The notes under the pieces are model-generated. The model worked only from the letters and a program-made list of their open reading frames with translations. It was not told the DNA's origin and made no database searches. A program made the translations under genes and the position numbers. From Pseudomonas sp. K2I15 (lineage in GTDB: Bacteria; Pseudomonadota; Gammaproteobacteria; Pseudomonadales; Pseudomonadaceae): a DNA stretch of 64,000 nt. Positions 6,982 to 20,623 of the stretch are shown here, piece after piece. Within the stretch, counting starts at the first letter, position 1. Each line of letters opens with the position of its first letter. The stretch is from assembly GCF_002204795.1 (NCBI RefSeq), contig NZ_NIXO01000005.1, positions 1 through 64,000 on the forward strand. The letters run 5' to 3'.

Positions 6982-7875
6982 TCAGGCCTGGTTGAGCTGG
7001 GCTTTGAGTAAGTCGCGGAAGGTCTGGATCAACGGCTCGCGGCTGCGGCCCCGGCGCATGATCATCGAGAACGGCGCCTGGTAACCAAAGGTTGCCGGCA
7101 ATAGCACCCGCAAGTCGCCCTTGTCGGCCCAGGCCTGGGCGTAGTGCTCCGGCAGGTAGCCGATGTAGGCGCCGGACAGCACCAGGATCAACTGCGCTTC
7201 CATACTTTCGACCGTGGCCGCACTGTGCTTGAAACCGTGGCGTGCGAGCTCGGCCTGGCTCCAGTAGCCACGGCCGACCATGCGTTGCTGGGTGATCACT
7301 TGTTCAGGGATGCGCCGCTCGTTGAACAGTGGATGGCGGGTGCTGCAATACAGCCAATGCTGTTCGCGGTAGAGCGGCATATAGATCAGCCCGCTCATGC
7401 GGTTGGAGAAGGCACCGATGGCCAGGTCCAGGCGATTGTCCTGTACACCCAACTGCAACTCGTAAGGGCTCATCACCGACAGGTGCAAATGCACCGCCGG
7501 GTGTTCCTGGCTGTAGGCGCCGATGACTTCGGCAAACGGCAAGGCCTTGTCGCTGACGGTGGAGTCGAGCACGCCGAGCTTCAACGTACCGCGCAATTCG
7601 CCTTTCAGCGCGGCGGCGTATTGCTCGAAACCTTCCAGTTCGCCCAACAGGCGCAGGGTTTCCTGATGGAACAACTCGCCCTTGCTGGTCAGGCTGAAAC
7701 CACCCCGGCCGCGATGGCACAACACCAGGCCCAACGCGGCTTCCAGTTGGCTCATATAGGTGCTGATGGCCGAGGTCGACAGGTTGAGTTCGTGCTGGGC
7801 GTTGGCGAAACCCTGGTGCCGCACGACGCTGACGAAGATGCGCAGGAGTTTCAGATCGGGCAAGGCGTTGGCCAT
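6982..7875 (-). CDS. gbuR: LysR-family regulator of the guanidinobutyrase locus (GbuR-like)
   Basis: This 297-residue LysR regulator has an N-terminal winged helix (about 8-66, ANAQHELNLSTSAISTYMSQLE) and a periplasmic-binding-like effector domain (about 95-290). It is transcribed divergently from gbuA. In P. aeruginosa (PA1422/PA1421, from memory) the orthologous pair has the same arrangement, and GbuR activates gbuA in response to 4-guanidinobutyrate. The 187-bp intergenic region holds a near-perfect palindrome at 7959-7982 that fits a LysR operator. The symbol rests on synteny and the identity of its neighbour. Confidence 0.82.
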   Translation of the reverse strand: MANALPDLKLLRIFVSVVRHQGFANAQHELNLSTSAISTYMSQLEAALGLVLCHRGRGGFSLTSKGELFHQETLRLLGELEGFEQYAAALKGELRGTLKLGVLDSTVSDKALPFAEVIGAYSQEHPAVHLHLSVMSPYELQLGVQDNRLDLAIGAFSNRMSGLIYMPLYREQHWLYCSTRHPLFNERRIPEQVITQQRMVGRGYWSQAELARHGFKHSAATVESMEAQLILVLSGAYIGYLPEHYAQAWADKGDLRVLLPATFGYQAPFSMIMRRGRSREPLIQTFRDLLKAQLNQA

Positions 7876-7958
7876 GGGCTCTCCGGTGAATCGTGACGCG
7901 GAGCGCCACAGGATGCATTCCCACGCAGAGCGCAGGAACGATCAGTCTACCTCAGCCA

Positions 7959-7982
7959 TTAGTTTAGAAAAATCTGAACTAA
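7959..7982. promoter_or_regulatory. palindromic operator between gbuR and gbuA
   Basis: Two 10-bp arms, TTAGTTTAGA and TCTGAACTAA, match at 9 of 10 positions around an AAAA centre. The site lies 84 bp upstream of the gbuR start and 80 bp upstream of the gbuA start. It contains the T-N11-A geometry expected of LysR regulators and is the most likely GbuR binding site. Confidence 0.6.
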
Positions 7983-8062
7983 GTATTTGCCCCTGCCGAT
8001 TCTTCCCTTCCGATGCATTTCGCAGAATCGGCTTCTAATAAACAAAACGATGAGGCAATCCC

Positions 8063-9013
8063 GTGGACAAGATTTTCCACCAACCACTGGGCGGCAACGA
8101 AATGCCGCGCTTCGCCGGCATCGCCACCATGATGCGTCTTCCCCATTTGCAATCGGCCAAGGGCCTGGATGCCGCCTTCGTCGGCGTGCCCCTGGACATC
8201 GGTACCTCCCTGCGTGCCGGCACCCGTTTCGGGCCGCGGGAAATCCGCGCTGAATCGGTGATGATCCGCCCTTACAACATGGCCACCGGCGCCGCGCCGT
8301 TTGACTCGCTGTCGGTTGCCGACATCGGCGACGTGGCGATCAACACCTTCAACCTGCTGGACGCCGTGCGCATCATCGAAGAAGCCTACGACGAGATCCT
8401 CGAACACAACGTGGTTCCGATGACCCTGGGCGGTGACCACACCATCACCCTGCCGATCCTGCGGGCGATCCACAAGAAACACGGCAAGGTCGGGCTGGTG
8501 CACATCGATGCCCACGCCGACGTCAACGATCACATGTTCGGCGAAAAAATCGCCCACGGCACCACCTTCCGCCGCGCGGTGGAAGAAGGCTTGCTGGATT
8601 GCGACCGCGTGGTGCAAATCGGCCTGCGGGCCCAGGGCTACACCGCCGAAGACTTCAACTGGAGCCGTAAACAGGGGTTCCGTGTGGTTCAGGCCGAAGA
8701 ATGCTGGCACCACTCGCTGGCGCCCTTGATGGCTGAAGTGCGCGAGAAAGTCGGCGGCGGCCCGGTGTACCTGAGCTTCGACATCGACGGCATCGACCCG
8801 GCCTGGGCGCCTGGCACCGGCACCCCGGAAATCGGTGGCTTGACCACGATCCAGGCGATTGAAATCATCCGCGGCTGCCAAGGCCTGGATCTGATTGGTT
8901 GCGACCTGGTAGAAGTTTCGCCGCCGTACGACACCACCGGCAACACCTCGCTGCTGGGCGCCAACCTGCTGTACGAAATGCTCTGCGTGTTGCCTGGCGT
9001 GGCGCACCGCTGA
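8063..9013 (+). CDS. gbuA: guanidinobutyrase (ureohydrolase family)
   Basis: This 316-residue ureohydrolase probably converts 4-guanidinobutyrate to 4-aminobutyrate and urea. The binuclear Mn ligands are visible in GGDHT, DAHADVND and SFDIDGIDP. The N-terminus MDKIFHQPLGGNEMPRF closely matches P. aeruginosa GbuA as I recall it. The start is GTG, with GAGG 8 nt upstream (the ATG at 8050 is in another frame). The stop overlaps the next gene by one base (TGATG). The operon continues with an NTF2-like gene and two permeases, the order of P. aeruginosa PA1421-PA1418. Agmatinase is an alternative annotation, but the context favours GbuA. Confidence 0.9.
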   Translation: MDKIFHQPLGGNEMPRFAGIATMMRLPHLQSAKGLDAAFVGVPLDIGTSLRAGTRFGPREIRAESVMIRPYNMATGAAPFDSLSVADIGDVAINTFNLLDAVRIIEEAYDEILEHNVVPMTLGGDHTITLPILRAIHKKHGKVGLVHIDAHADVNDHMFGEKIAHGTTFRRAVEEGLLDCDRVVQIGLRAQGYTAEDFNWSRKQGFRVVQAEECWHHSLAPLMAEVREKVGGGPVYLSFDIDGIDPAWAPGTGTPEIGGLTTIQAIEIIRGCQGLDLIGCDLVEVSPPYDTTGNTSLLGANLLYEMLCVLPGVAHR

Positions 9014-9438
9014 TGAGCACGCAGGCTGAGGTATTAAAAGCCGCGGCCGACCTGGTGTCGGCTTTTGCCCGCAATGACCGCGCCGCCTACTTTGGCGCGT
9101 TCAGTGCCGACGCCAGCTTCGTGTTCTACACCCTCCCCCAGCCGCTGCTGAGTCGCGACGCCTACCAGGTGTTGTGGGACAGCTGGCGCCGGGACGAGGG
9201 ATTCGAGGTGCTGTCCTGCACCTCAAGCAACGCTTTCGTCAGCCTGCAAGGTGACGTCGCAATATTTGTGCATGACGTGGCCACCGAGCTGCGCATGAAC
9301 GGGGAGCAATTCTTTAGCCAGGAACGCGAGACCATTGTCTTCAAACGACAAGGTGATCGCACACAACAAAAAGAAGGCCTGTGGCTGGCCTGTCACGAAC
9401 ATTTGTCCGCTATGCCGGAAGGGCTGCCGCCCCCTTAG
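9013..9438 (+). CDS. NTF2/SnoaL-like small protein of the gbu operon
   Basis: This 141-residue soluble protein has the alternating helix/strand pattern of the NTF2-like (SnoaL/DUF4440) cone fold: VLKAAADLVSAFARNDRAAYFGAF, then SFVFYTLPQPLLSRDAYQVLW, then strands ending in LWLACHEHLSAMP. Its function is unknown. It starts inside the gbuA stop codon, so it is translationally coupled. The corresponding P. aeruginosa gene (PA1420) is also uncharacterised as far as I know. A role in handling a guanidino intermediate is only a guess from position. Confidence 0.75.
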   Translation: MSTQAEVLKAAADLVSAFARNDRAAYFGAFSADASFVFYTLPQPLLSRDAYQVLWDSWRRDEGFEVLSCTSSNAFVSLQGDVAIFVHDVATELRMNGEQFFSQERETIVFKRQGDRTQQKEGLWLACHEHLSAMPEGLPPP

Positions 9439-9459
9439 CCAATGTGATCGGAGCTGATC

Positions 9460-10965
9460 ATGAATAATAAAAACAACGAAAATAGTATTCGCAACATAGA
9501 AACCAACGGCGTCGAACAGATCCCGGACCACGAACGTACCGCCGGGCCGAAGGATTTGTTTCGCCTGATTTTCGGCGGTGCCAACACCTTCGCCACCGCC
9601 GTGCTGGGGAGCTTTCCGGTGCTGTTTGGCTTGTCGTTCCAGGCCGGCGCCTGGGCGATTGTGCTGGGCGTGCTGGTGGGTGCGGTGATCCTCGCGCCCA
9701 TGGGCCTGTTCGGGCCGCTCAATGGCACCAATAACGCCGTGTCTTCCGGTGCGCACTTTGGTGTGCACGGGCGGATTGTCGGCTCGTTCCTGTCGCTGCT
9801 GACGGCCATCGCATTCTTCTCACTGTCGGTGTGGAGTTCAGGCGATGCGCTGGTGGGTGGTGCGAAACGGCTGGTGGGCTTGCCAGAAACCGACCTGACC
9901 CTGGGCCTGGCCTACGGCGTGTTCGCCATTCTCGTACTGACGGTGTGCATCTACGGCTTTCGCTTCATGCTGTGGGTCAACCGCATTGCCGTGTGGGCGG
10001 CGAGCCTGCTGTTCCTGCTGGGCATCTTCGCCTTCGCACCCACCTTTGATAGCCACTTCGCCGGCACCGTTGCCCTCGGCCAGACCGGTTTCTGGGCGGC
10101 GTTTATCGGTGCGGCACTGGTGGCCATGAGCAACCCGATTTCCTTCGGGGCGTTCCTCGGTGACTGGTCGCGCTACATCCCGCGGGAAACCTCAAAGATG
10201 CGGATCATGCTGGCGGTGGTGTTCGCGCAGATCGCCACCTTGATCCCGTTCCTGTTCGGCCTGGCCACCGCGACCATCGTAGCGATCAAGGCACCGGACT
10301 ACATCGCATCCAACAACTATGTCGGCGGCCTGCTGGCCGTGGCGCCGAGCTGGTTCTTCCTGCCGGTGTGCCTGATCGCGGTAATCGGCGGCATGTCCAC
10401 CGGCACCACCTCGCTATATGGCACCGGGCTGGACATGTCCAGCGTGTTCCCACGGTTGCTGTCGCGGGTCAAGGCGACGCTGCTGATCGGGGTGATGTCG
10501 ATTGCCTTCATCTTTATCGGACGTTTCGCCGCCAACCTGGTGCAGAGCGTGTCGACCTTCGCCGTGCTGATCATCACCTGCACCACACCGTGGATGGTGA
10601 TGATGATCATCGGCCTGATCGTACGCCGGGGTTATTACTGCCCGGACGACCTGCAAGTGTTCACTCGCGGTGAAACCGGCGGGCGCTACTGGTTCAGCCA
10701 CGGCTGGAACTGGCGCGGCCTGGGGGCCTGGATCCCGAGTGCGCTGGTGGGCCTGTGCTTCGTCAACCTGCCGGGGCAGTTTGTCGGGCCACTGGGCAAC
10801 CTCGCCGACGGCATCGACATCAGTTTGCCGGTGACGCTTGGCCTGGCCTCGCTGGTGTACCTGACGCTGCTTCGCGTGTTCCCTGAACCGGCTTCCGTCT
10901 ACGGGCCGACGGTGGCGAGGAAGCTTGCTCCCGTTCGACTGCGCAGCAGTCGCGAGGTCGCCTGA
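9460..10965 (+). CDS. NCS1-family permease (gbu operon)
   Basis: This 501-residue cytosine/purine-type nucleobase:cation symporter has about 12 hydrophobic segments after a polar N-terminus. LIFGGANTFATAVLGSFPVL is in the first helix and SFGAFLGDWSRYIP in the middle, both NCS1 signatures. Substrate is inferred from the operon: guanidinobutyrate or a related guanidino compound. The last roughly 18 codons and the stop lie inside a REPIN (10912-11027), so the C-terminal tail (VARKLAPVRLRSSREVA) is repeat-encoded and not ancestral. Confidence 0.88.
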   Translation: MNNKNNENSIRNIETNGVEQIPDHERTAGPKDLFRLIFGGANTFATAVLGSFPVLFGLSFQAGAWAIVLGVLVGAVILAPMGLFGPLNGTNNAVSSGAHFGVHGRIVGSFLSLLTAIAFFSLSVWSSGDALVGGAKRLVGLPETDLTLGLAYGVFAILVLTVCIYGFRFMLWVNRIAVWAASLLFLLGIFAFAPTFDSHFAGTVALGQTGFWAAFIGAALVAMSNPISFGAFLGDWSRYIPRETSKMRIMLAVVFAQIATLIPFLFGLATATIVAIKAPDYIASNNYVGGLLAVAPSWFFLPVCLIAVIGGMSTGTTSLYGTGLDMSSVFPRLLSRVKATLLIGVMSIAFIFIGRFAANLVQSVSTFAVLIITCTTPWMVMMIIGLIVRRGYYCPDDLQVFTRGETGGRYWFSHGWNWRGLGAWIPSALVGLCFVNLPGQFVGPLGNLADGIDISLPVTLGLASLVYLTLLRVFPEPASVYGPTVARKLAPVRLRSSREVA

Positions 10966-11027
10966 TGAATTGCGTGGAGCAGATTGGGGCTGCTGCGCAG
11001 CCCAACGGGAGCAAGCTCCCTCGCCAC
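10912..11027. repeat. REPIN overlapping the NCS1 permease stop
   Basis: The outer arms are GTGGCGAGGAAGCTTGCTCC (from 10912) and the inverted GGAGCAAGCTCCCTCGCCAC (ending 11027), with inner self-complementary stretches CGACTGCGCAGCAGTCG and GGGGCTGCTGCGCAGCCC. The permease stop codon at 10963-10965 lies inside it. The same half-unit occurs singly at 26-49. Confidence 0.88.
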
Positions 11028-11076
11028 ACAGCCCGCTTTAGCCGCTCATAAAAAAGACAATCGGAGACTCGCCGCC

Positions 11077-12459
11077 ATGGCATTAGATCTATTCGTCGTC
11101 CTCATCTACGCCGCCGGCATGCTGGTGCTCGGCTACTACGGCATGCGCCGCGCCAAGACCCATGAAGACTACCTGGTGGCGGGCCGCAACCTCGGCCCGA
11201 CGCTGTACATGGGCACCATGGCCGCCACCGTGTTGGGCGGTGCGTCCACCGTCGGCACCGTGCGCCTGGGTTATGTACATGGTATTTCCGGTTTCTGGCT
11301 GTGCGCCGCGCTGGGTGCGGGGATCATTGCGTTGAACCTGTTCCTGGCCAAGCCACTGCTGAAGCTGAAAATCTTCACCGTGACCCAGGTCCTGGAAAAG
11401 CGCTACAACCCGATGGCCCGCCAGGCCAGTGCGGTGATCATGCTGGCCTACGCGCTGATGATCGGCGTGACCTCGATCCTGGCGATCGGCACCGTGCTGC
11501 AAGTGCTGTTCGGCCTGCCGTTCTGGATCTCGGTGCTGCTGGGCGGTGGCGTGGTGGTGGTGTATTCGACCATCGGCGGCATGTGGTCGCTGACCCTGAC
11601 CGACATCGTGCAGTTCGTGATCAAGACCGTTGGCCTGATGTTTATCCTGCTGCCGATCTGCCTGTACCGCGTCGGCGGCTGGGATCAACTGGTGGCCAAG
11701 CTGCCCGCGTCGAATTTCAGCTTCACTGAAATCGGCTGGGACACCATCATCACCTACTTCATGATCTACTTCTTCGGCATCCTGATCGGCCAGGACATCT
11801 GGCAACGGGTGTTCACCGCCCGCGACGAAAAGGTCGCCAAGTACGCAGGCACGTTCGCTGGCTTCTACTGCATCCTCTACGGCCTGGCCTGTGCACTGAT
11901 CGGCATGGCCGCCCACGTACTGATCCCGGACCTGGACAACGTCAACAATGCGTTTGCCGCCATCGTCAAAGTTTCGCTGCCGGACGGTATCCGTGGCCTG
12001 GTGATTGCCGCTGCACTGGCCGCGATGATGTCCACCGCCAGCGCCGGCTTGCTCGCCGCCTCCACCGTATTGACCGAAGACCTGCTGCCGCGTCTGCGGG
12101 GTGGCAAGCAGTCGAGCTTAAACATCAACCGCCTGTTTACCTTGCTGACGGGGATTGCCGTGCTGGGTATCGCGCTGGTGGTAACCGACGTGATCAGCGC
12201 GCTGACCCTGGCTTACAACCTGCTGGTGGGCGGTATGTTGATCCCGCTGATCGGGGCGATTTTCTGGAAGCGTGCAACGACCTCCGGGGCGATTACTTCC
12301 ATGGCGCTGGGCTTTGTGACTGCGCTGGTGTTCATGATCAAGGATGGTCTGGATGCCAACACACCGATCTACTACAGCCTGGGCGTGGGCCTGGTGAGTT
12401 TTGTGGTGGTGAGCTTGCTGTCGCGTCGTCCGGAGGCTGTTGCGGCTCGGGCGATCTGA
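11077..12459 (+). CDS. sodium:solute symporter (SSS family) of the gbu operon
   Basis: This 460-residue protein has about 13 transmembrane segments and SSS motifs: AKTHEDYLVAGRNLGP near the N-terminus, GGASTVGTVRLGYVHG and FFGILIGQDIWQRVF. It is a sodium-coupled uptake system, and its position after gbuA suggests a guanidino or related nitrogen compound. The start at 11077 has CGGAGA upstream; an open extension to 10984 runs into the REPIN. The gene ends 28 bp before a strong terminator. A relic of a homologous 3' end is at about 15031-15075. Confidence 0.88.
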   Translation: MALDLFVVLIYAAGMLVLGYYGMRRAKTHEDYLVAGRNLGPTLYMGTMAATVLGGASTVGTVRLGYVHGISGFWLCAALGAGIIALNLFLAKPLLKLKIFTVTQVLEKRYNPMARQASAVIMLAYALMIGVTSILAIGTVLQVLFGLPFWISVLLGGGVVVVYSTIGGMWSLTLTDIVQFVIKTVGLMFILLPICLYRVGGWDQLVAKLPASNFSFTEIGWDTIITYFMIYFFGILIGQDIWQRVFTARDEKVAKYAGTFAGFYCILYGLACALIGMAAHVLIPDLDNVNNAFAAIVKVSLPDGIRGLVIAAALAAMMSTASAGLLAASTVLTEDLLPRLRGGKQSSLNINRLFTLLTGIAVLGIALVVTDVISALTLAYNLLVGGMLIPLIGAIFWKRATTSGAITSMALGFVTALVFMIKDGLDANTPIYYSLGVGLVSFVVVSLLSRRPEAVAARAI

Positions 12460-12487
12460 ACGAATAGTTGAAAGAAGCTTTCTTCAG

Positions 12488-12522
12488 CGGGTGCGACGTC
12501 GGATGTCGCACCCGTTTTTTTT
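12488..12522 (+). terminator. rho-independent terminator of the gbu operon
   Basis: A perfect 10-bp stem (CGGGTGCGAC / GTCGCACCCG) with a 7-nt loop is followed by eight T residues. It ends exactly at the stop codon of the convergent 699-codon gene. Confidence 0.92.
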
Positions 12523-14621
12523 CATTCCCACATTGCCGAAACCGCAGGCGCTTTTGCCTGAATGAGCTCCTGGACCAATGAGGCCCATACTAACCCCTGT
12601 GTTGTGCCCCCGGCATAAGTTGCCCCGGCTACAATTCGGTTGTATGCAGACCAATAAACGATTGAAAGTCCATCTGCTGTGCCGGGCCTGGCACATTCGA
12701 TAATTTGCAAGTCACCACTGTTGATCGCCCGTCGGTAAGACTTTGGAAAGTGCCGGGAAACAGCACCCAGACACGCCTCCAGTATCTGCTCCTTGTACTC
12801 CTGCGCCGAATCGGGCGGAACCTGCCCGCCAGAGACAAGAATGTAGCCCCCGTCCAAGCGGCAATTCATGACGCCGATTGGCAGATCGTACTGCAGCTTG
12901 AGTCCGCGCATGTCGGCACCTTCATTGCCAACAGCGCGCACCTTGAAAAACCAGCCAACGATCGCAACTACCTCTGCTTCCTCTACCCCCATGGCAGTGA
13001 TGACGAAGTGTTCTCTGCTTAGCTCAGCAATTTGAGCCGGGCTCTGATGCTGCGGTAGGAACTGAACCCCTGAGCGCTGCAAAAGCGCCCCTAGCTCATT
13101 CATAAGATGGCTAAACTCCAGATCGTAGCCCGATACCTCAATAGCCCGACCGATCCCAGGGATTCCATAATTTGTCTGGAATTGCAGTTGACCGACCTCT
13201 TTGAGCTCACATCCCGGCTTACCACTCGGCCAAGGCCTGCTTTCGATATCGCATTGCTCGCGGATCGCGGCCTCTATGCCACTGGCGTCGTCCATATAAG
13301 CTCGCACAATCCGCGACCGCGCGAATTGGGCCAACGATGGGTTGTCGGCCAGGAGCTTTTCAAACAGCTCGATACCTGCGCGATTGCACTCAACGGCCAA
13401 ATACTGATTTCCAGAAGTTAGATAATCGTTATATAGGGGCTTTGCCATCGTCTCCGTTGCTGACAGATGGCGCATGTTCACATTCTTATGACTGGCTCCA
13501 TCTCGCTCCTGATTTCCTCCGTAAACTATGACTTGATAATTCGCCAGGCGGAGCATCACGGCTTGGAGCAGGCCGTTGATACCTCTGCCGATGATCGACA
13601 CGCGCGGCGCACCGGCATATGCCTGCTGAGAGGGGATCACCAATGATTGTGCAAGTTTGCGCCTGACAAGACCGCGCAAGGCCGTCAAGCTCAGCTGAAC
13701 CGAGACAGCATAGTCAAGATCGCAATTGCAGGCTTCGGTGGTTGCCGCCTGTGTAGTAAGCGTCGCCGGTTTGCGCCATGTGGAGACACTACAGCCGAGC
13801 GCTTGTGTGCGCATACGAAATGCATCCAATGTATTAAGTCCATAGTCCAATACAAGTTGGATGTCTTCAGCGGTTGCCAGTGTCTGCAAAGCATCACCGC
13901 TGAAGACATCCGGTTTTGCGACGCAGACCAGGCGAGCTTTTTTGTGCATACGCTGAATGAGAGCACGATCAATGCAATGAGTGGATTCATCATTCAGGGA
14001 TATGCATATGGCGACAGCATAGGCATCCTCCAACGCCTCGAGCCAGTTAACGACAAATGACACTCTACTATTGGAGAATACAGTCCCAATATTGTCAGGC
14101 ACTCGCACCTGTCGAACCAACACCTTAATCCGAACATCCGGATCTCGATCAAGTAACAATTTAACGAGTTCTTTGCCCACATTGCCGTATCCCAGTACAC
14201 AGACATCATGGGGTATGGAGCCATCCGCCAGTGTCAGCCAGTGTGCAATATAGGCAGCAACATGCGGCGCGTTGACCCCTGGCATATTGACCACTCGAAT
14301 ATCGTTAGTTTCGCAAAGATCCAGTCGCACCTTATCCAAACTCGTACCTCTGCGGACCAAATAGAGGTCTCCAAAGGGGTGGGATATACGCCATTGTTCT
14401 ATAACGTCTGCGTCGATAATTTGGTCTGCGACAATGATTGTCGTTGGGCGCAGAAGTGCGATTTGTATGAGCAGAGCCTGCTTGGTTAATGTCGGGGGGA
14501 AAAACACTACGTTGCTCGGGGCGTCAGCCTTCCAACATCTTGATGCCGGTGCGATATGTAAGATAATTTCGGTTGTGGCGATGAGTGACGCGGCGACTGG
14601 CGGAACGGAAGAGAGCATCAT
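12522..14621 (-). CDS. two-domain protein: 2-hydroxyacid-dehydrogenase-like half plus DadA-like flavoprotein half
   Basis: The 699 residues form two halves. Residues 1-300 look like a D-2-hydroxyacid dehydrogenase, with the linker DIRVVNMPGVNAPHVAAYIA and a Rossmann loop LGYGNVGKELVK (143-154). The usual catalytic Arg motif (NxARG) reads VAKPDVF and the terminal His motif reads ATLTTQAATTEA, so it may be catalytically dead. Residues 338-690 look like a FAD-dependent D-amino-acid dehydrogenase/oxidase: SIIGRGINGLLQAVML (GxGxxG), then ECARPGTADG and GATYAGGTTQGLVWA. The usual acidic residue after the second strand is absent (VIVYGG). GGAG precedes the ATG. Base composition is lower in GC than the neighbours. 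I do not recognise a named family. Confidence 0.7.
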   Translation of the reverse strand: MMLSSVPPVAASLIATTEIILHIAPASRCWKADAPSNVVFFPPTLTKQALLIQIALLRPTTIIVADQIIDADVIEQWRISHPFGDLYLVRRGTSLDKVRLDLCETNDIRVVNMPGVNAPHVAAYIAHWLTLADGSIPHDVCVLGYGNVGKELVKLLLDRDPDVRIKVLVRQVRVPDNIGTVFSNSRVSFVVNWLEALEDAYAVAICISLNDESTHCIDRALIQRMHKKARLVCVAKPDVFSGDALQTLATAEDIQLVLDYGLNTLDAFRMRTQALGCSVSTWRKPATLTTQAATTEACNCDLDYAVSVQLSLTALRGLVRRKLAQSLVIPSQQAYAGAPRVSIIGRGINGLLQAVMLRLANYQVIVYGGNQERDGASHKNVNMRHLSATETMAKPLYNDYLTSGNQYLAVECNRAGIELFEKLLADNPSLAQFARSRIVRAYMDDASGIEAAIREQCDIESRPWPSGKPGCELKEVGQLQFQTNYGIPGIGRAIEVSGYDLEFSHLMNELGALLQRSGVQFLPQHQSPAQIAELSREHFVITAMGVEEAEVVAIVGWFFKVRAVGNEGADMRGLKLQYDLPIGVMNCRLDGGYILVSGGQVPPDSAQEYKEQILEACLGAVSRHFPKSYRRAINSGDLQIIECARPGTADGLSIVYWSAYNRIVAGATYAGGTTQGLVWASLVQELIQAKAPAVSAMWE

Positions 14622-14687
14622 AGTTCTATCTCCAACAATTTGAACTTACTCATGTCCCGGGGAGAGAAATTCAATAAAACTGGGGCG

Positions 14688-14972
14688 TTACGGAAATGCG
14701 CTGAAGTTTTTCCCGAGAGAAGTTTTCTTGCCTGAATAACTTTCTACGACCTTTAAGTCGACTTCGAGCGCCCCCCCTTGAGGAAGTTTTAGAAACGTAA
14801 ACGATACAAATCCCTCCCTAACGGAACTCAACCTACGCTTATCGTTAGAATTAAATAAGCCAGCCAGCTCCGACAAACTAGTAGTCCAATTCCGACACTT
14901 GAACACCGAAGCCTGATTAACGCGCACAAAGTCGGACGACTTCCGCAATACCGTGGAACTATTAAACGACAT
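14688..14972 (-). CDS. unknown 94-residue ORF upstream of the fused oxidoreductase
   Basis: This short AT-rich ORF starts MSFNSSTVLRKSSDFVRVNQ and ends YSGKKTSLGKNFSAFP. It is rich in Ser, Lys and Phe, with no signal peptide, membrane segment or domain I recognise. It lies 66 bp upstream of the 699-codon gene on the same strand, so it could be the first gene of a two-gene operon or a fragment of something larger. The ribosome-binding site is weak (TTTGGAA close to the ATG). It may not be a real gene. Confidence 0.4.
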   Translation of the reverse strand: MSFNSSTVLRKSSDFVRVNQASVFKCRNWTTSLSELAGLFNSNDKRRLSSVREGFVSFTFLKLPQGGALEVDLKVVESYSGKKTSLGKNFSAFP

Positions 14973-15030
14973 ATTCCAAAGGCATTTCCTGAAATCAGGC
15001 GCCTCTATCCGGACAATCGTTTAGATCGCC

Positions 15031-15122
15031 TTGGGCTTTATCACCGCGTGGGTATTCATGATCAAGGATGGGTAGGACGTAAACACCAGCAGGCGCGGCG
15101 TCGGAAGTCGCACCTGTTTTTT
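15031..15122 (+). pseudogene. relic of a second SSS symporter 3' end with its terminator
   Basis: From 15031 the plus strand reads LGFITAWVFMIKDG then a stop, matching ALGFVTALVFMIKDG near the end of the intact symporter (around 12301-12350), with nucleotide differences throughout. The last 100 or so bases of that gene are missing. A degraded copy of the same terminator type (stem around 15090-15116, then T residues) follows at once. The two copies bracket the foreign segment. This is a fragment, not a functional gene. Confidence 0.65.
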
Positions 15123-15149
15123 CGCCTTTGAGAAACTCACCAAACCCCA

Positions 15150-15180
15150 GAAACGAAAACGTCCGGCCAAAGCCAGACGA
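15150..15180 (-). terminator. terminator downstream of the PA1414-like gene
   Basis: On the minus strand CGTCTGGC and GCCGGACG pair around a TTTG loop (15160-15179), followed by TTTTCGTTT. It would end a transcript running from the small gene at 15285-15407, leaving about 105 nt of 3' untranslated RNA. Confidence 0.6.
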
Positions 15181-15284
15181 AGAATAGAAGTACACAGTAG
15201 CAGGTCATGCTCAATCATGACTTCAATACATAGGCAGAACACCTGGCCGCGCCCAAACAAACATACTTGAGCGCTTTCCAGGAC

Positions 15285-15407
15285 TTACCTGCGACGCGGG
15301 CGACGCTGCTCGTCATCGGTGCGAATTGGCACCGGTTGCAGCGGTGGCTCGATCAAGCCGAGTGCGACGCCGAGGTCGTGCAGCCAGTTTTGCAGTTTCT
15401 CTTTCAT
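15285..15407 (-). CDS. small PA1414-like protein (possible SicX-type transcript)
   Basis: This 40-residue protein (MKEKLQNWLHDLGVALGLIE, then PPLQPVPIRTDDEQRRPRRR) has an amphipathic helix and an Arg-rich tail. The Shine-Dalgarno AAGGGGG lies just upstream and fixes this start; a longer frame to 15503 lacks one. The sequence and the position near gbuA match the small P. aeruginosa gene PA1414 as I recall it. There the transcript is associated with the oxygen-controlled sRNA SicX. Whether an equivalent RNA exists here cannot be seen directly, but long untranslated flanks, a terminator and a possible Anr half-site upstream are compatible. Confidence 0.65.
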   Translation of the reverse strand: MKEKLQNWLHDLGVALGLIEPPLQPVPIRTDDEQRRPRRR

Positions 15408-15520
15408 GGTGCCCCCTTGGGGTAATGCCGAGCGGCTGGAATTCTGTGGCCGCTTCCTACTGATAGTAGTCTTAAGTCCTACGCATTGCTTGAACGAAAC
15501 CACAACGAACTATTACTGAA

Positions 15521-15534
15521 TTGATCAAGATCCT
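15521..15534 (-). promoter_or_regulatory. possible Anr/FNR-type site upstream of the PA1414-like gene
   Basis: On the minus strand AGGATCTTGATCAA has a perfect right half (ATCAA) and a partial left half compared with TTGAT-N4-ATCAA. It lies 114 bp upstream of the start codon. A TACTAT -10-like element at 15463-15468 would place the site further upstream than usual, so this is tentative. Confidence 0.35.
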
Positions 15535-15544
15535 GACGGATCGT

Positions 15545-16441
15545 TCAAGCAATTGCTCGGGTTTCGGTTTCCGGTAGCACCTTGCCCTCTTGTTGCAGGT
15601 CAATCCACGCATTGAGGTTAGCGCCGAGCATGCCCTTGCGCCACATCAACCAGGTGGTAGCGCTGGCAAAAGGCTCCGCCAACGGATGAATGGACACGCT
15701 GTCCTTGCCCGGCAGGCTGTCGAGCATCGATTCAGACATCAATGCAACCCCGGAACCGGCGGTCACACAGGCCAGCATGCCCTGGTAAGACTCGATCTCG
15801 ATGGCCCGGCCCATGGCCACACGGTCGTGGGAAAACCAAGCTTCCAGGCGCGCCCGGTAGGAACAACTGCGTCGGAACGTGAACACCGAGCGGCCGGCAA
15901 CATCCTTCGGCCCACGCACGGGCGGGTGATCCGCTTCGCAAATCAGCAGCAGGCGCTCTTCGCACAGCGGCACGCCATCCAGTGTGGCCAGGGTCAAAGG
16001 CCCATCCACCAGCGCGGCATCCAGGCGCCCGGTGATCAAGCCTTCCAGTAGTTCGCCACTGGGGGCCGACTGCACTTGCAGGTTCACCATCGGATACGCC
16101 TTGTGGTAGCGCGCCAGCAGTTTCGGCAAATGAATCGCCGCCGTGCTGTACATGCTGCCAAGCACAAAGTCGCCCGCCGGTTGCCCGCCTTGCACCGCGC
16201 CATGGGCTTCGTCATGCAGGGCCAGCAGGCGGGCGCTGTAGTCCAGCAGCACTTTGCCTGCGGGAGAAAGCTGCAAGCGTTGGCGCTCGCGCACGAACAG
16301 GTCGACGCCGAGCTGTTCTTCCATCTGTTTGAGCCGGGTCGACAGGTTGGACGGCACCCGGTGCAGACGTTCGGCGGCACGGGTGATGGAGCCCTCCTCG
16401 GCCACGGCCTGGAAAATACGCAATTGACTGAACTCCACCAC
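15545..16441 (-). CDS. LysR-family transcriptional regulator
   Basis: This 298-residue protein has a winged helix at 5-62 (ITRAAERLHRVPSNLSTRLKQ) and a LysR effector domain at 90-290. It is divergent from a YbfB-type MFS transporter gene with a 101-bp gap, so it probably regulates that gene. The sequence resembles the PtrR/YneJ type often annotated next to YbfB-like transporters. Its effector is unknown. Confidence 0.87.
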   Translation of the reverse strand: MVEFSQLRIFQAVAEEGSITRAAERLHRVPSNLSTRLKQMEEQLGVDLFVRERQRLQLSPAGKVLLDYSARLLALHDEAHGAVQGGQPAGDFVLGSMYSTAAIHLPKLLARYHKAYPMVNLQVQSAPSGELLEGLITGRLDAALVDGPLTLATLDGVPLCEERLLLICEADHPPVRGPKDVAGRSVFTFRRSCSYRARLEAWFSHDRVAMGRAIEIESYQGMLACVTAGSGVALMSESMLDSLPGKDSVSIHPLAEPFASATTWLMWRKGMLGANLNAWIDLQQEGKVLPETETRAIA

Positions 16442-16542
16442 CTTTCTCCAAAACTGAACAAGTTACTCACTATTATTCATTTTTAAAGAAAGTCAATCCG
16501 CTTTAGCCTGATGGTCACTCGCTACTCGCAGGAAAAACCGCC

Positions 16543-17751
16543 ATGTCACCGCTGATCCGCTTACTCGCCAGCTTTATCGCCTTGATGATGGCCATGGGAA
16601 TCGGCCGCTTCGCGCTTACCCCGCAAATGCCGCATTTGCTCAGTGAAGGGCAGATCGACCTGACCGGCGCTGGCCTGATCGCCGCGGCCAACTATCTGGG
16701 ATATTTCGTCGGCGCGGTGGATTCGATCTTTGCCCGCAGCCATCACCATGTACGCGGACGTTTGTACGGTGGGCTTTGGCTGTGTGTGCTGCTGACCCTG
16801 GCGTCGTACTGGGCCCATGGGTTTTGGCCACACCTGCTGTTGCGCTTCGGTACCGGTGTGGCGAGCGCCTGGGCGTTGGTGATGATCACCAGCCTGAGCC
16901 AGCCGCTGGCAATTGCCGCCGGGCGCCCACGCCTGGGTGCACTGGTGTTTGCCGGGCCGGGGCTGGGGATTCTGTTGACCGGGTTGCTGGCGCTGGGCTC
17001 CAACCTGCTGGGGCAAAGCTCTGCAACCTTATGGCTGGTGTATGGCGTAGTGGCGCTGGTCATGCTGCTGGTAATCCTGCCGTTCCTGCCCAAGCCTTCC
17101 GCCGCCAGCGCGCCCGTTGCCAGCCACACCGACGTGGTCAGCAACGGCAGCATCACACACCTGTGCTGGATCTACGTGTTGTATGGCCTCGGCTACATCA
17201 TCCCGGCGACGTTCCTTTCACAGATGGCCAGCGCGCAATTCAAAGGCGCCTGGCAGGCAGACCTGTTCTGGCCCTGCTTTGGCCTGGCTGCCGCGATTGG
17301 CGTGGTGGTCGCGAGCCTGCGCCGCAAGGACCCGGACACCACCCGCCGCTGGCTGATGACAACCCTTTGGCTGCAAGCGGCCGGGGTATTTGCCTGCCTG
17401 TTGGGCAACGGTTGGGGTCTGGCGCTGGGGGTGTTGCTGTGCGGTGGGCCATTCCTGGCGTGCATGCAACTGGTGATGGCGCGCTTGCGTGAGGTCGCAC
17501 CCCACGGCTACCAGCGCAGCACCGGGTTGCTGACCGCCAGCTTTGCGATCGGCCAATTGAGCGGGCCGTTGCTGGCGTCGGTCAGCAGCCACCTCAGTGG
17601 TGGCCTGCAACCGGCGCTGGTGGTCGCCGGCGCCGGTTTGTTAGTGGCAGGATCGGTACTGCTCAGCCGGCAACCATCGGTGCAGGCGCACGAACCTGTT
17701 CACGCCGCGCCAACACCAGGAAAAACAGCCCACCCAGGAAGCAGCCGGTAA
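16543..17751 (+). CDS. YbfB/YjiJ-family MFS transporter
   Basis: This 402-residue inner-membrane transporter has 12 predicted hydrophobic segments. The N-terminus LIRLLASFIALMMAMGIGRF and TPQMPHLLSEGQ are characteristic of the YbfB/YjiJ group, and the second half begins near residue 205 (ITHLCWIYVLYGLGYIIPAT). The substrate is unknown. Its last 89 bp overlap the convergent NCS1 permease gene at 17663-19105; both frames look intact. Confidence 0.88.
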   Translation: MSPLIRLLASFIALMMAMGIGRFALTPQMPHLLSEGQIDLTGAGLIAAANYLGYFVGAVDSIFARSHHHVRGRLYGGLWLCVLLTLASYWAHGFWPHLLLRFGTGVASAWALVMITSLSQPLAIAAGRPRLGALVFAGPGLGILLTGLLALGSNLLGQSSATLWLVYGVVALVMLLVILPFLPKPSAASAPVASHTDVVSNGSITHLCWIYVLYGLGYIIPATFLSQMASAQFKGAWQADLFWPCFGLAAAIGVVVASLRRKDPDTTRRWLMTTLWLQAAGVFACLLGNGWGLALGVLLCGGPFLACMQLVMARLREVAPHGYQRSTGLLTASFAIGQLSGPLLASVSSHLSGGLQPALVVAGAGLLVAGSVLLSRQPSVQAHEPVHAAPTPGKTAHPGSSR

Positions 17752-19105
17752 ACCAGGCGAAGTTGGCCATGCCCTGCAGCGCCGGGGTGAAGGTGATCGC
17801 GACGCCCACCAGCGTCGCGGGCACCAGTGCCTTGACCGCCGTCCAGTTCACGCCGCCGTCAAAGTAGTAGCGCCCGCTGGGGCTGTCATCGAACAGCGCA
17901 TCCACATCGATCTTCTGCTTTTTGATCAGATAGAAATCCACCAGCAGAATCCCGAACAACGGCCCGATAAACGCCGCGAGGATGTCGAGGGTGTAGTGGA
18001 TCATCAGCGGGTTGTTGAACAGGTTCCACGGGGTGATGAAGATTGAGGCCACCGCTGCGATCATGCCGCCGGCGCGCCAGCTGATTTTGCTCGGTGCCAC
18101 GTTGGCGAAATCAAACGCAGGCGAGACGAAGTTGGCGACGATATTGATACCGATGGTCGCGGTAACAAAGGCGAACGCTCCCAGCAGCACGGCCATATTG
18201 TTGTCGATGCGTGAAACGGTGGCGATCGGGTCGTGGAGCATTTCGCCAAACACCGGCAAGGTGCCCGAGACGATCACCACGGTGACCAGGGAGAACGCCA
18301 GGAAATTTACCGGCAAGCCCCAGAAATTTCCGCGACGTACGTCCTTCATCGTGCGGCAGTAACGACTGAAATCACCGAAGTTCAAGGTCGGCCCGGAAAA
18401 GTACGACACCACCAATGCGGTCGCCACGATGATTTGGCCGAAGGCCTGCCAACCTGACAGGGACTTTTCCGCCAGGGTAAAGCTGATATTGGCCCAACCG
18501 GCCTTCCAGACGATCCAGCCGGCCAGGGCAAACATCACCGCATAGACGATAGGTCCCGCCCAGTCGATAAAACGCCGGATGGATTCCATGCCGGTCCAGA
18601 ATACCAGCGCCTGGAGCGTCCATAGGCTGAGGAAACCGAACCAGCCCAAGTAAGACAGGCCTGCGAAATGTGGCTCTGCGTATACCGCCATCTGTGGGAA
18701 AAACCGCAGCACCACAATGATCAATGCGCTGGACGCCAGGTACGTCTGAATCCCGTACCAGGCCACCGCGATCAAGCCGCGAATCACCGCAGGAATATTC
18801 GCCCCAAAAACACCAAATGCCAGCCGGCAGATCACCGGATACGGCACCGCCGCCTGCTGGCTCGGCTTGGCCACCAGGTTGGCGATCAATTGCACGATGC
18901 AAATCCCGCCGAGCAAGGCGATCAACACCTGCCAACTGGCCAGCCCGAGGGCAAACAGGCTGGCAGCGAATACGTATCCGCCGACGCTGTGCACGTCGCT
19001 CATCCAGAAGGCGAAGATGTTGTACCAGTTCCATTTTTGCGGCAGCGGCCCCAGGTCCTGGTTGTACAGGCGCGGGCTGTAGCCTTTGGGCAATTGTTCG
19101 GTCAT
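17663..19105 (-). CDS. NCS1-family nucleobase/hydantoin-type permease
   Basis: This 480-residue NCS1 transporter differs from the one in the gbu operon. It has KWNWYNIFAFWMSDVHSVGGY at the N-terminus and LIAVAWYGIQTYLASSA in helix 3, typical of uracil, allantoin or hydantoin permeases, with 12 predicted membrane segments. The frame is open to 19267, but MTEQLPKGYSPRLYNQDLGP at 19105 is the family N-terminus. No catabolic gene or regulator lies next to it. Two operator-like palindromes lie upstream (near 19172 and at 19322-19335). Confidence 0.87.
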   Translation of the reverse strand: MTEQLPKGYSPRLYNQDLGPLPQKWNWYNIFAFWMSDVHSVGGYVFAASLFALGLASWQVLIALLGGICIVQLIANLVAKPSQQAAVPYPVICRLAFGVFGANIPAVIRGLIAVAWYGIQTYLASSALIIVVLRFFPQMAVYAEPHFAGLSYLGWFGFLSLWTLQALVFWTGMESIRRFIDWAGPIVYAVMFALAGWIVWKAGWANISFTLAEKSLSGWQAFGQIIVATALVVSYFSGPTLNFGDFSRYCRTMKDVRRGNFWGLPVNFLAFSLVTVVIVSGTLPVFGEMLHDPIATVSRIDNNMAVLLGAFAFVTATIGINIVANFVSPAFDFANVAPSKISWRAGGMIAAVASIFITPWNLFNNPLMIHYTLDILAAFIGPLFGILLVDFYLIKKQKIDVDALFDDSPSGRYYFDGGVNWTAVKALVPATLVGVAITFTPALQGMANFAWFTGCFLGGLFFLVLARREQVRAPAPMVAG

Positions 19106-19321
19106 CGCAGGGCTCCTCGTAAATACCGGCCTGCCACCCGCGACGGGAGTGCGTACGGGAGGCGGCATGGTTTGTATACGAATTGATGAGCAGAATGCGT
19201 GCCAATGGAATAAAACTCGGCACAATCCCTCTGGGACGTGGGTCTTCAGGAGGCTATGCGAGGGCACAGAGATGATTAATCGGTGCAGGTTCGCTCAGGG
19301 ATGGTGCAGATCAATCCTGTA

Positions 19322-19335
19322 CACAATCAATTGTG
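19322..19335. promoter_or_regulatory. CACAAT-CA-ATTGTG palindrome upstream of the NCS1 permease
   Basis: A perfect 14-bp inverted repeat lies within a run of related TGTACAC/GTGCAC words (19318-19350), about 220 bp upstream of the permease start and overlapping the end of the DUF2177 gene. A GTATAC-centred word is also near 19175. These resemble GntR-type operators; no regulator gene is adjacent. Confidence 0.35.
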
Positions 19336-19734
19336 CACCCTGCGTGCACATTGATAACCCATAGTGCAGCAAACCGCACTAAGGAAGGTGCCCCAGGCGA
19401 TATCCATGACAGCCAACCCGGCGGACCAACCCTGCAAGGTCGCCCAATTGCTCAGGTCATAGGTGCCGTAAGCCACCAGCCCCAGCAATGCGCCAAGCCG
19501 CGCGGCACGTTGCCAGCCGCCGCTCGTTAACGCGGGAAGCACGACAAACACCACACAACCGAATACATAGAGGAGATAGAACGCCACGGCCGGGAACAGG
19601 CGCGGCTGATCGAGCATCAGCGAGCCGAGCAGCGCTTTGTAGGTCGGCCCCATAAGGACGCCGAGCCAAAGGCCGTCGAGAATCAGAAAGGCGAGCAAGG
19701 TGCCGAGGTAGGCGAAGAGCGTTTTCCTGGACAT
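19327..19734 (-). CDS. DUF2177 family membrane protein
   Basis: This 135-residue protein has four predicted transmembrane helices and the DUF2177 signature: FLILDGLWLGVLMGPTYKALLG near the N-terminus and GLVAYGTYDLSNWATLQGW in the third helix, then DIAWGTFLSAV. Its function is unknown. The ATG at 19734 is preferred over an extension into the palindrome at 19747-19772. It is probably monocistronic. Confidence 0.85.
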   Translation of the reverse strand: MSRKTLFAYLGTLLAFLILDGLWLGVLMGPTYKALLGSLMLDQPRLFPAVAFYLLYVFGCVVFVVLPALTSGGWQRAARLGALLGLVAYGTYDLSNWATLQGWSAGLAVMDIAWGTFLSAVCCTMGYQCARRVHN

Positions 19735-19746
19735 CGTCGTGACCCC

Positions 19747-19772
19747 TTGTAGGAGCGAGCTCGCTCCTACAA
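19747..19772. repeat. perfect 26-bp REP palindrome
   Basis: TTGTAGGAGCGAG is followed directly by its complement CTCGCTCCTACAA. It is the TGTAGGAGCGAGC family unit found as REPINs at 37295, 50322, 55850 and 63030, but here with the two ends joined without a spacer, upstream of the DUF2177 gene. Confidence 0.8.
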
Positions 19773-19786
19773 AGAGCAAACCGCGA

Positions 19787-20623
19787 TCAGCTTAGTTCAA
19801 TACGATCCGCGTGGATCACGATGTGACCCTGCTTATAGAGGGCGCCGATGGCCTTCTTGAAGTTGCCTTTGCTGACACCAAACAAACTGCTGATCAGCGC
19901 CGGGTCGCTTTTATCGCTGACCGGCAAGGTGCCGTTGTTGTCACGCAACTTGGCGAGGATCTTCGAGTTCAGGCTGGAGGCCGCTTCTTCACCGACCGGC
20001 TGCAGGCTCAGGCTGATATTGCCGTCGGCACGGATTTCCTTGATGAAGCCTTTCTCTTCCTTGCCCGGGCGCAGGAACTTGAACACTTCATTCTTGTGGA
20101 TCAGGCCCCAGTGCTTGTTGTTGATAATGGCCTTGAAGCCCATGTCGGTGGCTTCGGCCACCAGCAAGTCAACTTCCTGGCCTACCTTGTAGGTGGCCGG
20201 GGTCTTGTCCAGGTAACGGTCAAGGCGCGCGGTGGCGGTGATGCGCTTGGTGTGTTTGTCGAGGTAGACATGCACCACGCAATATTCACCGGCAGTCAAC
20301 TGGCGCTTTTCTTCGGAGTAAGGCAGCAGCAAATCCTTGGGCAGGCCCCAATCCAGGAACACACCAATGCTGTTGACTTCAACCACTTTCAGACTGGCAA
20401 ATTCACCCACCTGTACTTTTGGTTTTTCGGTGGTCGCGATAAGTTTGTCATCGCTGTCCAGATAAATAAAAACGTTGAGCCAGTCTTCATCTTCACTGGG
20501 AATATCTTTGGGGATATAACGATTGGGCAAGAGGATTTCGCCCTCTTGATCACCATCCAGGTACAAACCAAAGTTAGTGTGTTTAACCACTTGCAAGCTG
20601 TTGTAGCGCCCGACTAAAGCCAT
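19787..20623 (-). CDS. CvfB-like S1-domain RNA-binding protein
   Basis: This 278-residue protein carries repeated S1-like OB-fold domains (about 1-60, 65-130, 145-210) and a C-terminal winged helix (about 225-278, DPALISSLFGVSKGNFKKAIGAL). This order is typical of CvfB/YitL proteins. In Gram-positive bacteria CvfB affects virulence gene expression; the role in Pseudomonas is not established. The ATG at 20623 has GAGGG 8 nt upstream on the minus strand, while the upstream ATG at 20638 has none. Confidence 0.88.
   Translation of the reverse strand: MALVGRYNSLQVVKHTNFGLYLDGDQEGEILLPNRYIPKDIPSEDEDWLNVFIYLDSDDKLIATTEKPKVQVGEFASLKVVEVNSIGVFLDWGLPKDLLLPYSEEKRQLTAGEYCVVHVYLDKHTKRITATARLDRYLDKTPATYKVGQEVDLLVAEATDMGFKAIINNKHWGLIHKNEVFKFLRPGKEEKGFIKEIRADGNISLSLQPVGEEAASSLNSKILAKLRDNNGTLPVSDKSDPALISSLFGVSKGNFKKAIGALYKQGHIVIHADRIELS

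Follow-up and report, generated by a model that had tools for sequence, protein, structure and literature searches.

A Pseudomonas fusion protein joining a PdxB-like dehydrogenase fold to a DAO-superfamily flavoprotein domain

We describe a rare gene of Pseudomonas sp. K2I15 whose product joins a first half with the fold of the 2-hydroxyacid dehydrogenases (2HADHs) to a flavoprotein domain of the DAO superfamily. The protein is a real and coherent new domain arrangement made of known folds. Its long form is conserved and under purifying selection, and a short type and a mosaic pattern of gene cores are found in the same genus. We tentatively favour the reading that the long form is a flavin-dependent oxidoreductase of an amino or imino acid (or a related amine) that carries a remodelled, probably NADP-binding partner domain. 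That FAD and NADP are bound, that the pocket exists and that the two halves cooperate is predicted, as is the class of substrate. Common folds have here been combined into a lineage-restricted protein with a remodelled site, and the whole is undescribed by the family models tried.

A single reading frame encodes two known folds

The analysed window is a stretch of 64,000 nucleotides. On its minus strand, at 12522-14621 (stop codon included), lies a single intact frame of 699 codons; one frame of this length had been noted there in a first-pass annotation of this DNA. The frame runs from 14621 down to 12522, starts with ATG, contains zero internal stops and encodes a protein of 699 aa. Given the gene's own base composition, a run of 699 open codons at a given place would arise by chance with a probability of ∼2e-13. 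Pfam searches matched 2-Hacid_dh_C at residues 139-256 (E 2.4e-9) and DAO at residues 341-683 (E 1.2e-8), each above its cut-off, and no family model spanning the whole 699-aa protein was found in Pfam or NCBIfam. The searches did not place the protein in a characterised enzyme family; such a placement would have spoken against an undescribed activity. A literature search of open-licence papers revealed none that evidently describes a fusion of 2HADH-like and DAO halves. Rfam gave no match in window positions 8000-20000. Conservation of the upstream DNA yielded nothing usable in the part of the alignment examined.

The gene is present in one copy in its own genome. Its G+C content is 52.9%, below the 59.8% of the window as a whole, and at third codon positions it reaches 55%, as against 82% and 75% for the genes on either side. 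The fusion gene therefore looks acquired. A phage, plasmid or defence origin was considered and rejected, as no match was obtained in phages, plasmids, viral contigs, PADLOC or PHROGs.

The fusion is genuine and restricted to Pseudomonas in the samples searched

The gene was detected in 23 of 398 sampled Pseudomonas genomes (E ≤ 1e-10, the window's own included). Thirteen of these carry long frames, seven shorter open frames and three broken ones; the long frame of one genome (G196) ends a few residues early. A scan of named species added three long forms, from P. fragi, P. sp. KBW05 and P. helleri, and showed that P. aylmerensis carries a short form, which was counted as one with that of G139. 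Both Pfam domains were matched in all 16 long forms. Identity to the window protein is 70-84% for the other 15, and 264 alignment columns are invariant among the 16.

The first-pass annotation had proposed a fusion and had named a sequencing error joining two separate genes as the finding that would undo it. Such a join, whether by sequencing or by assembly, is refuted by the 16 long forms that keep both halves in separate genomes, and its probability is negligible. For five pairs of long forms, dN/dS was 0.14-0.20 in the first half and 0.10-0.17 over residues 373-699; the long form is under purifying selection and is a working gene.

A second search of the genus returned 15 of 287 genomes, all among the earlier matches. 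Wider searches were carried out in samples of the order, the phylum and the class, which overlap. A one-protein search of 194 genomes of the order and a profile search of 185 genomes of the class (E ≤ 1e-5) each found the own genome only, and a profile search of 398 genomes of the phylum (E ≤ 1e-15) gave two matches, both in Pseudomonas. In the samples searched so far, the fusion gene is restricted to this genus.

The first half is closest to PdxB and its site is remodelled

The first half (residues 15-305; 13707-14579, minus strand) was assigned a 2HADH fold, nearest PdxB, by VIA-align, PF02826 and the PdxB model. PF02826 (2-Hacid_dh_C) scored 37.3 bits compared to a cut-off of 25.1, which places the half in the 2HADH superfamily. 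The best 2HADH match in VIA-align, for model residues 15-305, had a Z of 15.8 and an rmsd of 4.7 over 246 aligned residues, on a weak AlphaFold model of the long form (mean pLDDT 56; blocks of 63-84 across residues 121-250, with a dip to 47 at 171-180); the VIA-align list was taken up entirely by first-half matches. The dehydrogenase scaffold proposed for this half thus agrees with both the Pfam match and the fold match, and the first nucleotide-binding loop, LGYGNVGKELVK, lies at residues 143-154 (14160-14195, minus strand), where it had been placed.

The NCBIfam PdxB model matched all 16 members, with a best E-value over members of 5.7e-10. A haloarchaeal D-2-hydroxyacid dehydrogenase model also matched 16 of 16, and for the window protein alone it scored 30.4 bits compared to 29.5 for PdxB. 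The own genome holds 19 PF02826 matches, the fusion gene included; two of the others were unreadable in frame, and among the remaining 16 proteins the genome's own PdxB came first (24.4 bits, next 19.7). By eye, the link from the first lobe to the nucleotide loop is short in the own PdxB and the fusion protein; it is longer in each of the nine other own 2HADH proteins whose loop could be located.

The catalytic triad of 2HADHs is Arg-Glu-His, according to the accessible text of PMC6303947. In the fusion protein the place of the NxARG motif reads VAKP, and Lys236 (13914-13916, minus strand, located by alignments), invariant in all 16 long forms, stands in place of the catalytic Arg. There is no invariant His between residues 121 and 377 of the long forms, and the partner column of the catalytic His is uncertain, being either the invariant Thr289 or position 291 (Gln, Arg or His). 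A catalytic Glu is absent from the conserved LDYGPxTL stretch after LDY in the 16 long forms. The first-pass annotation was therefore right that NxARG and His are missing. Its label of pseudoenzyme does not follow from the triad losses alone, since an active relative lacks His and Glu (PMC6303947, accessible text).

Ten residues of the first half are invariant in all 16 long forms: Arg90, Arg91, Gly92, Ser94, Asn117, His120, Lys236, Asp259, Tyr260 and Gly261. From the fold, these would meet in one pocket. Arg170, near a strand end, is conserved at 90% or more, which suggests NADP(H) as the nucleotide of the first half. The genomic search thus recovered a coherent clade with odd residues conserved, which the first-pass annotation had named as support for its reading: the triad is lost and other residues are invariant.

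The second half is a DAO-superfamily flavoprotein domain

The second half (residues 341-683; 12573-13601, minus strand) was matched by PF01266 (DAO) in all 16 long members. In the window protein the score was 35.3 bits compared to a cut-off of 27.9 and covered profile positions 2-350 of 353, which places the half in the superfamily. The second nucleotide-binding loop, SIIGRGINGLLQAV, is present as had been noted, at residues 342-355 (13557-13598, minus strand), one position off from the earlier 343-356. The motif RPGTADG at residues 645-651 (12669-12689, minus strand), which we take to be the FAD-side motif of DAO proteins, corresponds to the R-P-x-T-x-D-G-like motif of the first-pass annotation; both motifs were read from the sequence and the member alignment. 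GxGxxG and RPxTxDG are therefore both retained in the flavin half. In DAO flavin domains an acidic residue for the FAD ribose is usual after the second strand. Its lack in the window protein had been recognised earlier: the place is occupied by Gly368 in all 16 long forms, and by Glu in two of the seven intact short forms.

The former description of this half as DadA-like was too specific; the DAO superfamily alone is supported. NCBIfam searches listed 15 families for the window protein at E ≤ 1 and 13 for the 16 members at E ≤ 0.01, and no DadA model was among them. Of DAO-type subfamilies, just ThiO (E 0.0028) and the L-pipecolate oxidase AmaA (E 0.0064) were matched at E ≤ 0.01, each in one of 16 members. 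Of 37 DAO-profile matches in the own genome, the best 24 were compared in frame, and no close paralogue was found among them (best E 0.0065). A Foldseek match to an MnmC chain extended over 756 columns but with an rmsd of 29, and was taken as chance.

The gene shares its insertion site with other genes

A sodium/solute symporter gene adjoins the fusion gene in all 23 genomes, and the same LysR and MFS genes lie on the other side. P. fragi and P. helleri carry the gene at other sites, next to purA and a gene for a chemotaxis receptor, and next to a set of amino-acid ABC-transporter genes (products assigned by eye from translations). The symporter is present in 15 of 25 genomes without the fusion gene. 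In these 15, no remnant of the gene was found within 1.5 kb; the LysR gene was whole or nearly whole in five, partial in two and out of reach in eight.

The LysR gene of the window (15545-16441, minus strand) matches the model of the putrescine utilisation regulator PtrR (465 bits compared to a cut-off of 400), and an agmatinase-family gene is located at 8063-9013. From the sequence, these two genes suggest a polyamine/arginine neighbourhood.

Between the fusion gene and the LysR gene, at 15285-15407 (minus strand), lies a gene for a 40-residue PA1414-family small protein (NCBIfam NF041729, E 2.5e-24), beside which accessory genes insert. The small RNA SicX presumably originates at the PA1414 locus. 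For P. aeruginosa, the accessible text of PMC10247376 mentions SicX together with PA1414. At the same insertion site, some relatives have a gene of the Amidase_2 family (PF01510; E 7.1e-17 in L052, the copy tested). In L052, which is from the same genome as L034, it occupies positions 7704-8306 and is followed by a small lipoprotein-like gene at 8297-8677; the amidase gene is also found in L041, L050 and L053. The lipoprotein-like gene, recognised by eye and without a Pfam match, overlaps the amidase end in L034/L052 and in L053. As a guess, the two may be an effector and immunity pair.

A functional link of the fusion gene to its agmatinase, transporter and putrescine-regulator neighbours was put aside for three reasons. 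The amidase gene, in some genomes together with the lipoprotein-like gene, enters the same site; the neighbours simply adjoin in five of the 15 gene-less genomes; and two named species carry the fusion gene elsewhere.

A short type lacks most of the flavin half

In 10 of the 23 genomes the gene is of a short type, seven copies with open frames and three broken (L051, L056 and L057 in genomes G358, G278 and G067, respectively, where the matches are split over more than one frame). By alignment, two stretches are missing. The first lies near residues 430-493 (13143-13334, minus strand; 55-64 aa, edges varying over 430-508) and the second near residues 549-649 (12675-12977, minus strand; 100-103 aa, edges varying over 544-650). 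L016 has an extra 5-residue gap, L019 lost the second stretch in two blocks, and several short forms have smaller gaps. Besides the first half, the short forms retain the initial strand-helix-strand of the flavin half, an island near residues 500-548 and the tail. Judged from the DAO fold, the missing stretches would make up most of the part that binds the substrate. The model of a short form had a mean pLDDT of 65, with the strand-helix-strand at 340-367 reaching block means of 79-88. Flavin oxidation has probably been lost in the short type, with the first half kept either temporarily or for a separate function.

The intact short forms differ in how well the first half is preserved. At 115 first-half positions that are invariant in the long forms, L014 has three changes, L016 and L015 one each and L019 none; L034 has 12, L020 13 and L021 11. 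As a control, the same count for every long form against the other 15 gave deviations at 0-6 of 115-121 invariant positions. Lys236 is altered in two of the seven intact short forms (L034 and L021) and Tyr260 in three (L034, L020 and L021). L034 and L020 are sisters, so the three changed forms represent two lineages. The first-half site is thus highly conserved in the long forms, kept in four of the seven intact short forms and broken down in three. Its conservation in the long forms and in those four argues that the site is under selection.

These data bear on a reading in which the first half, as a pseudoenzyme, serves as a scaffold or NADP sensor in its own right and the flavin half is dispensable. 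The short forms exist as seven intact genes, four of which keep nearly all invariant first-half positions, and dN/dS in the first half is 0.21 for the short sisters L034/L020 and 0.07 for the long-short pair L011/L019. The 11-13 changes in the other three short forms, which include pocket residues, point the other way, as do the broken copies (three of 10 short compared to none of 13 long genes, Fisher p 0.068), and the first half of L019 could owe its preservation to recombination. We regard a scaffold or sensor as a doubtful account of the first half.

Another reading concerns the short type only, the window itself carrying the long type. Here the short forms would be an accessory enzyme gene being lost, on the way to pseudogenes. 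The three broken genes fit such decay, and the flavin remnants diverge more, with a mean DNA identity over residues 377-430 of 82.7% between long forms and 69.0% between short forms. Flavin-piece dN/dS in pairs with short forms was 0.15-0.56, an unclean measure of relaxation because of the mosaic pattern and the uncertain alignment at the gaps. Decay is, however, improbable: seven short genes have open frames despite at least two gap blocks each, the missing lengths are near constant, and first-half dN/dS in pairs that include short genes (0.07-0.21) exceeds that in long pairs (0.14-0.20) by a hair at most.

Cores are mosaic between long and short types

Pairs of gene copies were compared in windows of 150 bases. 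L045 and L053, a long-short pair from the L011 and L019 genomes, share 89-99% identity at the gene ends and in the downstream DNA, the island at bases 1501-1650 is only 63% identical (136 aligned bases), and upstream of -150 the DNA is unrelated. In L047/L055 both flanks are 79-97% identical compared to 55-74% for the gene body (bases 301-1650) in well-filled windows. L044/L050 show a weaker contrast between core and flanks. The much greater similarity of ends and flanks than of core or body in L045/L053 and L047/L055 points to exchange between species.

Separate trees were in line with this pattern. In the first-half tree the short type needs at least six state changes, and a single clade was rejected (AU p 4e-6). 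In the tail tree it needs five changes (one clade rejected, p 0.005), and in the core tree three, with one clade only weakly rejected (p 0.019). The core tree groups L019 with L021 (99/87), with L014 adjacent (94/88); in the first-half and tail trees L019 sits with L011 and L021 with L013. Long and short types are also intermixed in a tree of neighbour proteins. The simplest account of these sequence patterns is that cores move between lineages by recombination; an extreme local speed-up is a conceivable alternative. The short type may have arisen somewhere from a few to six times, with exchange of cores. A single recent origin is unlikely, since the short islands are no more alike mutually (64.3%) than to the long ones (68.1%).

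Possible roles of the long form

In the reading we tentatively favour, the DAO-superfamily half would act as the flavin-dependent oxidoreductase of an amino or imino acid, or of a related amine. The PdxB-like domain in the same chain, without the normal 2HADH triad and with its nucleotide loop conserved, would bind a nucleotide and a small acid in its pocket, and this pocket would work with the flavin site or control it. Lys236 and Tyr260, invariant in the long forms, are changed in two and three of the seven short forms, which is expected if the pocket serves the flavin half. Several points speak against this reading. Four of the seven short forms lack most of the flavin half and yet differ at only 0-3 of the 115 first-half positions, an argument that the oxidase is not required by the first half. 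Gly368 replaces the usual FAD-ribose acid, the predicted pocket geometry rests on a weak AlphaFold model (mean pLDDT 56), and the neighbour genes, at a site that other genes also enter, give no firm lead.

A more specific proposal is that oxidase and reductase act in one chain: the flavin half would yield an imino or keto acid, which the first half would reduce with NADPH at a Lys-based site. The 2HADH fold can act as an acyclic imino-acid reductase, and 6p2i (Bsp5) was among the fold matches (Z 15.1). Its score, on the weak model, was no higher than those of other 2HADHs, so that this match to one of the acyclic imino-acid reductases (Bsp5, PunC5) is undistinctive, and 6p2i was absent from the profile search at E ≤ 10, which listed 18 sequences. 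All long forms share the pocket residues, which three of seven short forms have lost in part; in the other four, however, the first half persists although most of the oxidase is gone. Arg has become Lys and neither the catalytic His nor the Glu is conserved, though type IIIK phosphoglycerate dehydrogenase is active without His and Glu (PMC6303947, accessible text). We consider such a coupled enzyme unlikely. By analogy to DauA/DauB of P. aeruginosa (PMC5619798, accessible text) and to Bsp5 with its oxidase, its product could, with the same low probability, be a mirror-image amino acid or a hydroxy acid.

It would be bolder to see in the protein a single-polypeptide amino-acid inverter, or amino-to-hydroxy-acid converter, built from a PdxB-derived Lys-site reductase and an oxidase core that Pseudomonas species exchange as a cassette between long and short types; this we think improbable. 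If oxidation and reduction were coupled in one chain, the protein would be a compact natural amino-acid inverter. The long and short types with their mosaic cores offer ready natural variants with which to study the role of the first half in the absence of the oxidase.

Comparison with known systems

The first half is, by sequence, closest to PdxB (4-phosphoerythronate dehydrogenase, 2HADH family) yet not PdxB. It shares with PdxB the best NCBIfam E-value over the 16 members, the short link before the nucleotide loop and the similar stretches NARGVVDYV/NAPHVAAYI and EDLQAVLDV/EDIQLVLDY. The fusion protein, however, scores 29.5 bits compared to the NCBIfam cut-off of 434, and its match stops at profile position 232 of 379. 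The cofactor loop of PdxB contains an Asp plus two prolines (PMC6303947, accessible text); this Asp-Pro-Pro loop is absent from the window protein, where strand end and loop read KVLVRQVRVP. The C-terminal dimerisation domain is lacking and a DAO domain follows instead. The half has neither the catalytic Arg nor the His and is fused to a flavoprotein.

When the profile was searched against PDB sequences, type IIIK phosphoglycerate dehydrogenase (4njm/4njo), which works without His and Glu, tied for the best match (E 3.9e-4); 4njo, the protein named in the accessible text of PMC6303947, has the same sequence as 4njm. Type IIIK differs in that the catalytic Arg is kept in the alignment, and the flavin half of the fusion protein is unmatched.

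The second half belongs to the DAO superfamily (PF01266; DadA, ThiO, AmaA), with a near-whole profile match and GxGxxG and RPxTxDG kept, and is not DadA specifically. It differs in having Gly368 for the usual acid, and the ThiO and AmaA models matched one of 16 members each.

For the combination of both halves, possible parallels are DauA with DauB, the latter belonging to another family, and Bsp5 with its partner oxidase. Bsp5 showed no sequence link to the fusion protein in the profile search (E ≤ 10). In P. aeruginosa, DauA produces iminoarginine, this turns into 2-ketoarginine, and DauB converts the latter to L-arginine (PMC5619798, accessible text), and the Bsp5 reductase and its partner oxidase carry out such coupled chemistry as separate proteins (PMC11876095, accessible text). 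Flavin-dependent amino-acid oxidation beside NAD(P)H reduction may be the logic that these systems share with the fusion protein, distributed over separate proteins there and placed in a single chain here.
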